Positions 20,732 to 41,623 of a DNA stretch of 60,374 nt are shown piece after piece. This DNA is from Rhodoferax sp. GTDB taxonomy: Bacteria > Pseudomonadota > Gammaproteobacteria > Burkholderiales > Burkholderiaceae_C. The stretch lies in the NCBI RefSeq assembly GCF_011391645.1, contig NZ_JAABQC010000003.1, forward strand, positions 1 to 60,374, in the 5' to 3' direction. The notes below the pieces were generated by a model. The model did not search any database. It worked only from the letters and a program-made list of their open reading frames with translations, and was not told the origin of the DNA. Numbering within the stretch: the stretch's first letter is position 1; each line of letters opens with the position of its first letter. The position numbers and the translations under genes were made by a program.

Positions 20732-21181
20732 TCAGCGCCCCACTTCGTCCACCAGCGTCCTGAAGTCGTCAATGTCTTCAAAGCTGCGGTAAACGCTGGC
20801 AAAGCGCACATAGGCGACTTTGTCGAGTTTTTTGAGCTCGTACATCACCAGTTCACCGATGCGGGTGGACAGCACTTCGCGCAGGCCCAGATTCAGCAGC
20901 TTTTCTTCGATACGCTCTACCGCGCCATCCACCTGCTCGGTGCTCACCGGGCGCTTGCGCAGCGCCAGGTTCATGGATGCCTGCAGTTTGGCGCGCTCAT
21001 ATTCAATGCGGCGACCGTCTTTTTTGACAATGGCCGGAAACGTGACTTCGGGGCGCTCGTAGGTGGTAAACCGCTTGTCGCACAAGGCACAGCGGCGTCG
21101 CCGCCGGATGAAGCCCCCGTCTTCAGAAACCCGGGTTTCAACCACCTGGGTTTCGGGATGACTGCAGAAGGGGCATTTCAT
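20732..21181 (-). CDS. nrdR: Transcriptional repressor NrdR
   Basis: [43 protein letters not shown]. Confidence 0.97.
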
Positions 21182-21184
21182 GCT

Positions 21185-21246
21185 TGCTCAGTCAGTTGGG
21201 GACAGAACTGGTTTACTTCGTGTAACTGCGGTCTGTCCTGCGATCA
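21185..21246 (-). repeat. REP-like hairpin element filling the glyA-nrdR gap
   Basis: Minus strand TGATCGCAGGACAGACCGCAGTTACACGAAGTAAACCAGTTCTGTCCCCAACTGACTG: outer GGACAGA/TCTGTCC; the first TGA is the glyA stop. Confidence 0.75.
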
Positions 21247-22488
21247 ACCATAGACCGGGAAGCGCGCCGTCAGCGCATTGACCTTGGCGCGCACGGCGGC
21301 GATGTTGGCCTCGTCGCGCGGGTTGTCGAGCACATCGGCGATCAGGTTGGCTGTCATGCGGGCTTCTTCGTCCTTGAAGCCCCGCGTGGTCATGGCCGGG
21401 GTGCCCACCCGCACGCCGCTGGTCACCATGGGCTTTTCGGGGTCATTGGGGATGGCGTTTTTGTTGATGGTCATGTGGGCTGCGCCCAGCACAGCTTCCG
21501 CTTCTTTGCCAGTGATGTTTTTGGAGCGCAAATCCACCAGCATGACATGCGATTCGGTACGGCCGCTCACAATCCGCAGGCCGCGCTGGGTGAGCGTTTC
21601 GGCCACGATGCGTGCATTTGTCAGCACTTGCTGCTGATATACCTTGAAATCAGGCTGCAATGCTTCCTTGAAGGCCACGGCCTTGGCGGCAATCACATGC
21701 ATCAGCGGGCCGCCCTGCAGGCCGGGGAAGATGGCGCTGTTGATGGCTTTTTCATACTGTGACTTCATCAAGATGATGCCGCCACGCGGGCCGCGCAGGC
21801 TCTTGTGGGTGGTGCTGGTCACCACGTCTGCATGCGGCACCGGGTTGGGATAGACGCCCGCGGCAATCAGGCCGGCGTAGTGCGCCATGTCGACCATAAA
21901 GATGGCGCCCACGTCTTTGGCCACCTTGGCAAAGCGCTCAAAGTCGATGCGCAGGCTGTAGGCACTGGCACCGGCAATGATCAGCTTGGGCTTGGATTCA
22001 TGCGCCTTGCGCTCCATGGCGTCGTAGTCGATGGCTTCATTGGCATCCAGGCCATAAGACACCACGTTGAACCATTTGCCGCTGATGTTCAGGGGCATAC
22101 CATGCGTCAGGTGACCACCTTCGGCCAAGCTCATGCCCATGATGGTGTCGCCGGGTTTCAAAAATGCCAGAAAAACGGCTTCATTGGCCGATGCACCGCA
22201 ATGCGGCTGCACGTTGGCAGCTTCGGCGCCAAAGAGTTGCTTGACCCGGTCCAGGGCCAGTTGCTCGGCAATGTCGACAAACTCGCAGCCGCCGTAGTAG
22301 CGCTTGCCAGGGTAGCCTTCAGCGTACTTATTAGTGAGTTGGGTGCCTTGCGCGGCCATGACGGCAGGTGAGGCGTAGTTTTCGCTGGCAATCAGCTCGA
22401 TGTGGTCCTGCTGGCGCTGGTTTTCAGATTGGATGGCGGCAAACAGTTCGGGGTCGGTTTGCTCAATGAGAATGTTACGGTCGAACAT
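21244..22488 (-). CDS. glyA: Serine hydroxymethyltransferase
   Basis: [59 protein letters not shown]. Confidence 0.97.
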
Positions 22489-30895: not shown

Positions 30896-31543
30896 ATGGC
30901 CACAGCAGCAACGGCGGAGTGCATCGCCACACCGCACTATTGGGAGGAAGCCTGCAAGCATCTGATCAAGAAAGACCGCGTCATGAAGCGGCTGATCCCG
31001 CAGTTTGGCAAAGCGCGCCTGCAGAGCCGGGGCGATGCCTTTGCCACCCTGGCGCGCAGTGTGGTTGGTCAGCAGATCTCGGTCAAGGCGGCACAAACCG
31101 TGTGGGACCGTTTTGCCAAGCTGGCGCCATCGATGAACCCCGGGCAAGTGCTCAAGCTCAAAATCGACGACATGCGCGCGGCGGGCTTGAGCGCCCGCAA
31201 GGTGGAATACCTCGTTGACCTGTCGATTCACTTTGACAGCGGCCTGGTGTGCGTGGACGACTGGGCCGCGATGGATGACGAGGCCATCATTGGTGAGCTT
31301 GTGGCCATTCGAGGCATTGGCCGCTGGACCGCCGAGATGTTTTTGATTTTTCATTTGATGCGCCCCAATGTGCTGCCGCTCGACGACGTCGGGTTGATCA
31401 ATGGCATCAGCAAAAGCTATTTTTCGGGTGAGGCGGTCAGCCGCAGCGACGCGCGTGAGGTGGCGCTGGCCTGGGCGCCTTACCGCACCGTGGCAACTTG
31501 GTATATTTGGCGCTCGTTGGATCCGGCGCCGGTGGAATACTGA
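30896..31543 (+). CDS. DNA-3-methyladenine glycosylase, AlkA/HhH-GPD family
   Basis: VVGQQISVKAAQTVWDRF, LVAIRGIGRWTAEMFLIFHLMRPNVLPLDDVGL (catalytic Asp). Confidence 0.88.
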   Translation: MATAATAECIATPHYWEEACKHLIKKDRVMKRLIPQFGKARLQSRGDAFATLARSVVGQQISVKAAQTVWDRFAKLAPSMNPGQVLKLKIDDMRAAGLSARKVEYLVDLSIHFDSGLVCVDDWAAMDDEAIIGELVAIRGIGRWTAEMFLIFHLMRPNVLPLDDVGLINGISKSYFSGEAVSRSDAREVALAWAPYRTVATWYIWRSLDPAPVEY

Positions 31544-31600
31544 AACCTTGCGGGTCAGATCAGGAATTGCGCAGCAATTTTGCTCTGACCCCAACTGATT
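31540..31600 (+). repeat. REP-like double-hairpin element, family A copy 1
   Basis: C-TGA-AACCTTGCGGGTCAGATCAGGAATTGCGCAGCAATTTTGCTCTGACCCCAACTGATT: outer GGGTCAGA/TCTGACCC, inner AATTGC-GCA-GCAATT; TGA is the upstream gene's stop. Confidence 0.8.
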
Positions 31601-31619
31601 GTCGGATGTTGGATGTCGA

Positions 31620-31655
31620 CCTTGCAGGTCAGATCTTTAGCTCTGACCCCAACCT
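31620..31655 (+). repeat. REP-like element, family A shortened copy, directly upstream of accA
   Basis: ccttgcaggtcagatctttagctctgaccccaacct: outer GGTCAGA/TCTGACC kept, inner hairpin missing. Confidence 0.7.
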
Positions 31656-31668
31656 ATAAGGAATTTGT

Positions 31669-32646
31669 GTGACTAAAAAAACTTTCCTCGATTTCGAGAA
31701 CCCGATTGCCGAGCTGGAAAACAAGATTGAAGAGCTGCGCTACGTGCAGACCGAGTCGGCAGTTGATATTTCGGCTGAAATCACCCAGTTGGCCAAAAAG
31801 AGCCAGCAGCTCACCAAGGACATCTACAGCGACCTGACGCCCTGGCAAATCACCAAAATTGCCCGCCACGCCGAGCGCCCCTACACGATGGATTATGTGA
31901 ACGAGTTGTTCACCCATTTTGTTGAGTTGCATGGGGACCGTCATTTTTCTGACGACCTCAGCATCGTGGGCGGCCTGGCCCGGTTCAACGGCACACCCTG
32001 CATGGTGATTGGCCAGCAAAAAGGCCGCGATACCCGCGAGCGCGCCACCCGCAACTTTGGCATGAGCAAACCCGAGGGGTACCGCAAAGCGCTGCGTTTG
32101 ATGAAAACAGCAGAAAAATTCAAGCTGCCGGTATTCACTTTTGTCGACACGCCCGGCGCCTACCCTGGCATCGATGCCGAAGAGCGCGGCCAGTCGGAGG
32201 CCATTGGTCGCAATATTTTCGAGATGGCGCAACTGGAGGTGCCGGTGATTGTGACCATCATCGGCGAGGGCGGCTCGGGTGGTGCGCTGGCAATTTCCGT
32301 GGGCGACCAGGTGCTGATGCTGCAGTACTCCATCTACTCGGTGATCAGCCCCGAGGGCTGCGCCTCCATTTTGTGGAAAACCTCCGACAAGGCGCAGGAG
32401 GCGGCCGACGCGCTGGGCATTACCGCACACCGCCTCAAGGCCCTGGGCGTGATTGACAAAATCGTCAACGAGCCGGTGGGCGGCGCGCACCGCGACCCCA
32501 AGCAGATGGCTGCCTTCCTCAAGCGCGCATTGACCGAAGCTTACCGCCAGGTCAGTGACCTCAAGCTTGCAGACTTGCTGGACCGGCGCTATGAGCGGCT
32601 GCAAAGTTATGGCCGCTTCACCGACACCAAAAACACGGGTAAATAA
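31669..32646 (+). CDS. accA: Acetyl-CoA carboxylase carboxyltransferase subunit alpha
   Basis: [58 protein letters not shown] start. Confidence 0.96.
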
Positions 32647-40687: not shown

Positions 40688-41155
40688 ATGGCTGAACTCG
40701 ACCGCATTGACAAGAAAATCCTCGACATCCTGCAGCGCCAAGGCCGCATTTCGATGACCGAACTGGGTGAGCAGGTCGGGCTCTCAACCTCGCCTTGCGC
40801 CGAGCGGGTGCGGCGCATGGAGCGCAACGGCGTCATTACCGGCTACCACGCCCAGGTCGATCCCAAATCGGTCGGCAAAACGCTGCTGGTGTTTGTTGAA
40901 ATCACCCTCACCACCAAGTCGGGCGACGTGTTTGACCAGGTTCGCAAGGCGCTGTTGCACATGCCCGAGGTGATGGCGTGTTATTTGGTGTCGGGCAACT
41001 TTGACTACCTGGTCAAAGCGCGGCTGAATGCCATGCCCGACTACCGGGAACTGCTGAGCAGCATCCTGCAAAAAATCCCGGTGCCGTCGCAGTCGCACAG
41101 CTACGTCGTGATGGAAGAAGTAAAGGACACGGCCATCATGAACATTAAGTTCTAA
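40688..41155 (+). CDS. Lrp/AsnC family transcriptional regulator
   Basis: LDRIDKKILDILQRQGRISMTELGEQVGLSTSPCAERVRRMERNGVITGYHA; divergent from dadA. Confidence 0.93.
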   Translation: MAELDRIDKKILDILQRQGRISMTELGEQVGLSTSPCAERVRRMERNGVITGYHAQVDPKSVGKTLLVFVEITLTTKSGDVFDQVRKALLHMPEVMACYLVSGNFDYLVKARLNAMPDYRELLSSILQKIPVPSQSHSYVVMEEVKDTAIMNIKF

Positions 41156-41210
41156 TCAGTTGGGGTCAGAGCACGTCGCTGCGCGAGTGGTCTGACCCGC
41201 AAAGTTTCAG
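41156..41210 (-). repeat. REP-like double-hairpin element, family A copy 2 (inverted)
   Basis: Minus strand C-TGA-AACTTTGCGGGTCAGACCACTCGCGCAGCGACGTGCTCTGACCCCAACTGA: inner TCGC-GCA-GCGA; TGA is the stop of the S4 gene. Confidence 0.8.
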
Positions 41211-41623
41211 CTTTTGAGGCTGGCGCTCCAGCGCGCGTCCCAGCCATGCTGGCGCAGTTGCTCGGTGTCGCGCCGGTCGCGTTTGGTGGGGCGGCCCTGG
41301 CTCAGACTCAGGGCTGGTTCGGGGGCCAGGCGCCGCTGCTCGGCTGCCTGTTGGCGCTGGCGAATGGAGTCTTCGGTTTCCTGGTAGAGCAGGGCGGCGA
41401 CCGGCGCCGGGCCCCGCTTGTCGCTGATCGCCAGCACGGTCACGGTGCGGCTGACGGGCCCGCTGCGCAGCAGCACACTGTCGCCCGCTTTGAGCTCGCG
41501 TGCCGGTTTGGCCACCACGCCATTCACCTGCACCCGGCCCTTGTCGATTTCTTCGCTGGCCAGCGTGCGCGTCTTGTAGAAACGCGCCGCCCAAAGCCAC
41601 TTGTCAAGGCGAAGTCGTTCCAT
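41207..41623 (-). CDS. S4-domain RNA-binding protein (Hsp15/HslR-like)
   Basis: MERLRLDKWLWAARFYKTRTLASEEIDKGRVQVNGVVAKPARELKAGD. Confidence 0.9.
   Translation of the reverse strand: MERLRLDKWLWAARFYKTRTLASEEIDKGRVQVNGVVAKPARELKAGDSVLLRSGPVSRTVTVLAISDKRGPAPVAALLYQETEDSIRQRQQAAEQRRLAPEPALSLSQGRPTKRDRRDTEQLRQHGWDARWSASLKS

Follow-up and report, generated by a model that had tools for sequence, protein, structure and literature searches.

The members of a family of short palindromic repeats in Rhodoferax lie, at either end, flush with the stop codons of adjacent genes far above chance, and the comparison of orthologous alleles indicates that the stop codon predates the arrival of the element at the loci compared. 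The starting point was a window of 60,374 nt (the whole stretch of DNA that was analysed), which is contig C101 of a draft genome of 2.74 Mb that is 93% complete. Taken as a whole, the observations are probably best explained by a non-autonomous, REP-like mobile palindrome that inserts at or just 3′ of stop codons and depends on a TIRYT-type enzyme in trans.

A hairpin family in Rhodoferax

Three copies of the repeat had been reported in the window by the initial annotation. Both the sequence and the matches to a covariance model (CM) place them about where they had been put, and a fourth copy, in tandem with the first at 31613-31662, had been missed (Table 1). The short-loop form of this tandem copy, with a TCTTTAG loop, is also found at the same site in three loci from the orthology-selected set (L287-L289).

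Table 1. Copies of the element and the genes adjoining them in the window
Feature	Position	Strand	Evidence and remarks
Element copy 1, long-loop variant	31539..31604	+	CM E 3.9e-19; fold z -3.8
TGA of copy 1	31541-31543		Stop of the 3-methyladenine-glycosylase-like (alkA-like) gene
Element copy 1b, in tandem with copy 1, short-loop variant (GGTCAGATCTTTAGCTCTGACCCC)	31613..31662	+	CM E 7.1e-9
Element copy 2, closest to consensus	41150..41211	-	CM E 6.6e-25; orthologous empty sites
5′ TGA of copy 2	41207-41209		Stop of the Hsp15/S4 gene
3′ TTA of copy 2	41153-41155	+	TAA stop of the convergent Lrp-like gene
Diverged GGACAGA-type copy in the glyA-nrdR gap	21186..21252	-	CM E 2.6e-11
DNA-3-methyladenine glycosylase-like gene, upstream of copy 1	30896..31543	+	NF007641 E 8.8e-8, below curated cut-off
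accA, downstream of copies 1 and 1b	31669..32646	+	TIGR00513 above cut-off
Hsp15-like S4-domain gene	41207..41623	-	NF007673 E 3e-30, below curated cut-off
Lrp-like regulator, convergent with the Hsp15-like gene	40688..41155	+	NF008370 E 6e-56, below curated cut-off
glyA (name from the initial annotation)	21244..22488	-	ORF list; conserved junction with nrdR
nrdR	20732..21181	-	TIGR00244 above cut-off

The consensus of the family is ~58 bp long and reads cTTGARACCTTGCGGGTCAGACC-loop-GCTCTGACCCCAACTGATTAG, or, divided into its segments, cTTGARACC-TTG-C-GGGTCAGA-C-CAC-TCGC-GCA-GCGA-C-GTG-C-TCTGACCC-CAA-CTGATTAG. In the window's genome there are 50-70 copies: the 12-mer CTCTGACCCCAA has 36 exact sites, against none for the reversed control, and a covariance model built from 30 copies gives ~57 matches at E<1e-6 and ~70 at E<1e-3. 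At least one copy is present in 79 of 90 Rhodoferax genomes, with 0-67 copies in each relative; one exact sub-family was found in 7 of 61 relatives, and the named relatives with the element are mostly Rhodoferax MAGs. When the elements were merged into arrays, 168 of the 184 arrays were clear of called genes, and within arrays the copies run head-to-tail at a spacing of ~56 bp rather than alternating. Being multi-copy, short, palindromic and mostly extragenic, the element is a REP in the broad sense. A search of phage and plasmid records with the consensus gave no match, and neither did Rfam up to an E value of 1 with copies 1 and 1b as queries. In G086, a near-complete relative from a separate species, the copies are split ~30:19 by replication strand on a coarse GC-skew map, a bias that is not significant.

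The element had been described as a double hairpin, but it forms a single, imperfect hairpin: a C is bulged, and the outer and inner parts nest in one stem-loop. The consensus fold has a minimum free energy of -24.7 kcal/mol (z -5.2) and a hairpin core of 36 bp, and the diverged glyA copy gives a weak hairpin (z -1.4). The earlier proposal that the stems covary is borne out at the genus level. Among 110 copies, pairing is found in 90.7% of cells, and compensatory changes occupy 106 cells as compared with 47.4 in shuffles; the covariation score is 0.163 versus 0.099 for shuffled alignments, none of 500 shuffles reaches the observed value, and the slid controls of the test collapse. An outer-stem change from T-A to A-T (43 and 61 copies) is the strongest of the compensatory swaps. 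Pairs changed on both sides are no more numerous than in the shuffles (315/500), so that the support for covariation comes from the cells and the score. Two other identities of the hairpin were considered: an intrinsic terminator was rejected because no U run follows the stem, the 3′ sequence being CCCCAACTGATTAG, and a candidate integron attC site was dropped on sequence layout alone.

Stop-codon register and orthologous alleles

The stop-codon counts come from retrieved loci on which genes were called with a home-made program, reliable for stops but rough for starts. The orthology-selected loci (L255-L344) were kept out of these statistics to avoid circularity. The pattern matches in loci L002 and L005 are different palindromes and were omitted too. 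By context, 69 arrays lie in sense between codirectional genes (++), 49 between convergent genes, 28 in antisense between codirectional genes (--) and 12 between divergent genes. The initial annotation had the element always in the same orientation; a bias is evident (69 sense versus 28 antisense), but the constancy is not.

On the 5′ side, the stop of the upstream co-oriented gene falls on the element's TGA, exactly 4 nt before TTGC, in 45 of 118 arrays, whereas 4.3 such fusions are expected from uniform placement within the residual gap; stops lie within 15 nt of the element in 97 of the 118 (24/28 in the window's own genome and 73/90 in the others). On the 3′ side, the stop of a convergent gene coincides exactly with the element's TTA, which is TAA on the gene strand, in 36 of 77 arrays versus 3.2 expected on the same basis. 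The fused stops are also distinctive in their identity: TGA makes up 40 of the 45 at the 5′ end compared to a background of 57% (p 9e-6), and TAA makes up 30 of the 36 at the 3′ end compared to 31% (p 2.5e-10). In G086, 12 of 23 upstream stops are at the identical nucleotide. Among element copies in general that do not adjoin a stop, the TGA triplet is present in only ~55%, and it may accordingly belong either to the element or to the target. Because related species contribute arrays that are partly dependent on one another, z-scores overstate the certainty, although the size of the effect does not depend on them. The initial annotation had named three outcomes that would count against it, namely no TGA-stop enrichment, no orientation bias and no covariation, and none of these was observed.

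Within the window, the stops of the alkA-like and Hsp15/S4 genes both lie on the element's TGA, as had been described for copies 1 and 2, and 4 nt ahead of TTGCGGG; for copy 2 that description was incomplete, since its 3′ end also carries the TAA of the convergent Lrp-like gene. The glyA copy is likewise genuine, but it does not share the register attributed to it, because the glyA TGA (21244-21246) abuts the TCGCAGG of this copy directly, at a distance of 0 rather than 4.

In 11 close relatives, alleles with and without the element were set side by side at glyA-nrdR, alkA-accA and Hsp15-Lrp and at 12 more loci, and the element proved polymorphic for insertion there. At glyA-nrdR, for example, most of 30 orthologous junctions are empty and 4 are occupied. 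All 26 occupied alleles with the 4-nt spacing have their stop, TGA or TAA, in the codon that matches the stop of the window's gene, as do 89 of 97 occupied alleles overall. Among alleles without a recognised element, some of which may hold remnants missed by the pattern, the stop is at the codon of the window's gene in 113 of 133. At its stop codon position, alkA keeps TGA, TAA or TAG across orthologues. At Hsp15-Lrp, the two convergent stops of element-free alleles overlap or are 3 nt apart (L324, L320), and the Lrp stop, TGA in element-free alleles, is the element's TAA at an unchanged codon in occupied ones. Since the stop is at the same codon with or without the element, the element appears to land on and merge with an existing stop and to create none. 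The initial annotation, in which the first codon of the element stops the neighbouring gene, does not fit element-free alleles that stop at the same codon. Mobility of the element is supported, and so is the earlier picture of a REP-like, structured and mobile repeat that is non-randomly flush with stops (45 versus 4.3; 36 versus 3.2).

Individual sites add further observations. The element at the alkA site of the alkA-accA junction (L285-L314) differs between species, being of the GGGTCAGA type in some and of the GGGACAGA type in others, which implies that insertion or replacement has recurred at this point and suggests turnover or concerted replacement of the element at this junction. At one stop site (L017), the element is forward, inverted or a remnant, depending on the species. 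Three loci (L439, L452 and L456) have inverted and nested copies at one stop codon, that is, repeated insertion at a single site. In relatives, an unrelated type of repeat with a double hairpin, ~70 bp long and reading GTAGGAGGCCCGCCCTCGGGCC..GCGGCGAGGGCGCCGCTCCTACA, is inserted into stop-flush elements or beside them (L451, L441, L467 and L454).

Transposase genes and known repeat systems

The initial annotation pointed to RAYT transposases as established movers of REP elements, and an association of the repeat with one was not recovered. A PF01797 (Y1) search of the window's genome gave no match, which at 93% completeness may reflect a transposase hidden by MAG incompleteness. Across 61 genomes, element copy number does not correlate with the presence of Y1 (Spearman 0.08, p 0.53), genomes without Y1 holding as many elements as those with it, and no element was found near the 30 Rhodoferax Y1 loci that were read. 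A Y1 gene of ~230-237 aa, with NF047646 above cut-off, is nevertheless present as a single copy in nearly all Rhodoferax (for example, L098-L110). GGGGTCAGATTCCAATT repeats lie downstream of this gene and, in some loci, upstream as well; the border repeats read GGGGTCAGA / TTGGGGTCAGATTCCAATT / GGGGTCAGATTCCAATTA, with inverted copies in some loci. The gene and its GGGGTCAGATTCCAATT borders are a TIRtron in the sense given to that term in PMC3733652. The 11-mer TCTGACCCCAA is common to the border repeats and the element, the shared arm motif amounting to only 8-11 nt. Longer GGGGTCAGA..CTCTGACCCC palindromes were seen at L002 1450-1520 and L005 ~1475-1530, apparently inside genes of the window's genome, and that of L002 resembles the border repeat GGGGTCAGATTCCAATTA.

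TIRYTs, which are subclass 2.1 of TnpA_REP (PMC6006769), were defined by Di Nocera et al. (2013) by their inverted repeats, many of which have the motif GGGGWSAS (PMC3733652; PMC6006769). The outer stem of the element matches this motif in both of its types, reading GGGGTCAG or GGGGACAG on one strand, and the closest affinity of the element is therefore with TIRYT repeats; as judged from the sequence, this kinship is a lead and not proven membership. Like the TIR repeats of TIRtrons, the element has a GGGGWSAS arm (GGGGTCAG, GGGGACAG), units that are self-complementary and occur as dimers and clusters, and a copy number uncorrelated with transposase presence (PMC3733652). Unlike them, its arms make one hairpin and do not border a transposase gene, its sequence outside the 11-mer differs, and its own genome yielded no Y1; it also has a precise stop register, which the relevant portions of PMC3733652 do not report for TIR families.

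GTAG REPs and REPINs resemble the element in size, imperfect bulged hairpin, intergenic position, location at ORF 3′ ends and termini that form a stop (PMC3733652). They differ in that the element has neither a GTAG nor a CGTC tetranucleotide at its consensus ends, which are TTGARACC and CAACTGATTAG, uses TGA and TAA as stop triplets, forms head-to-tail arrays and has no flanked RAYT; no Y1 gene flanked by the repeat, the mark of a RAYT-mobilised REP, was found. REPs hug the 3′ ends of ORFs, and GTAG ends often provide the flanking ORF with a TAG stop (PMC3733652). In E. coli, REPs within 15 nt of a stop, which differ from the element in sequence but likewise put a hairpin directly downstream of the stop, can reduce translation (as summarised in PMC12306157). 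The general phenomenon was thus already known, and the earlier remark that the stop fusion may be undescribed was too strong, given that REP ends providing stops were reported in 2013 (PMC3733652). What is new is the family, the TGA/TAA register at both ends and the orthologous-allele evidence that the stop came first.

Explanations for the register

REP-like repeats are known to cluster at gene 3′ ends. The element could be no more than a common GTAG-type REP that is mobilised by a classical RAYT flanked by REPs and whose proximity to stops follows only from short intergenic space. It is a small palindrome, present in many copies, intergenic, clustered and located at ORF 3′ ends like REPs (PMC3733652); the lack of either tag at its ends, the head-to-tail spacing of ~56 bp, the lack of a Y1 match in the window's genome and of a flanked RAYT among the loci read, and the 4.3 fusions predicted by uniform gap placement against 45 seen make this explanation quite unlikely. 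We consider it quite improbable, too, that the element supplies the stop by inserting into gene tails, so that the frame then ends at its TGA or TAA. The fused stops do carry the element's letters, as with the change of the Lrp stop from TGA to the element's TAA, but the codon is identical in occupied and element-free orthologues (26/26 at the 4-nt distance), alkA retains TGA, TAA or TAG there, and the genes are neither truncated nor extended. At the loci read, the orthologous alleles refute the idea that the element makes new stops, though it may replace the letters of stops already present.

Selection for function, in which a hairpin a few nucleotides past the stop protects the 3′ end of the mRNA, ends transcription or modulates translation termination, would account for the closeness of most 5′-side stops (within 15 nt in 24/28 arrays of the own genome and 73/90 of the others), the preference for sense orientation (69:28) and the compensatory changes that maintain the stem, and it has a published precedent in the E. 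coli REP effect (PMC12306157). It is unlikely, however, because the peak spans a single nucleotide and the identity of the codon is fixed, which is sharper than a spacing role requires, the stem has no U-tract after it, 28 codirectional arrays are antisense, and orthologous sites are often empty, which implies that the element is dispensable.

In the preferred explanation, the repeat would be a non-autonomous REP-like mobile palindrome of ~58 bp that has spread through Rhodoferax, and a TIRYT-type TnpA_REP (Y1/HUH) transposase, the most likely mover since the outer stem fits GGGGWSAS, would move it, or would once have moved it, in trans as a folded single strand. Insertion would occur at or directly 3′ of stop codons, each end of the element offering a stop triplet to a gene that runs into it (TGA on the 5′ side; on the 3′ side TTA, read as TAA on the other strand). 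As these triplets coincide with the existing stop of the flanking gene, termination would be preserved. A target preference for a TGA/TAA-like site, together with purifying selection against intragenic copies, could then give the one-nucleotide register. Several results count against this explanation: the window's genome gave no PF01797 match despite its 50-70 copies, copy number does not follow Y1 presence, the Y1 loci read have no element nearby, the arm motif in common is short (8-11 nt), and TGA is present in only ~55% of the copies away from stops. A stronger proposal, which we regard as rather unlikely, is that the insertion machinery itself recognises gene ends and that the termini merge with stops in frame, on either side, allowing spread without protein change.

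With about 90 related genomes, a register at both ends, codon identity, and both occupied and empty alleles, the family makes the choice between targeting and selection directly testable. It also ties a large repeat set to a group of HUH transposase relatives, GGGGWSAS/TIRYT, that has been little studied. If gene-end recognition were true, a bacterial mobile element would have a safe-site rule specific to stop codons.
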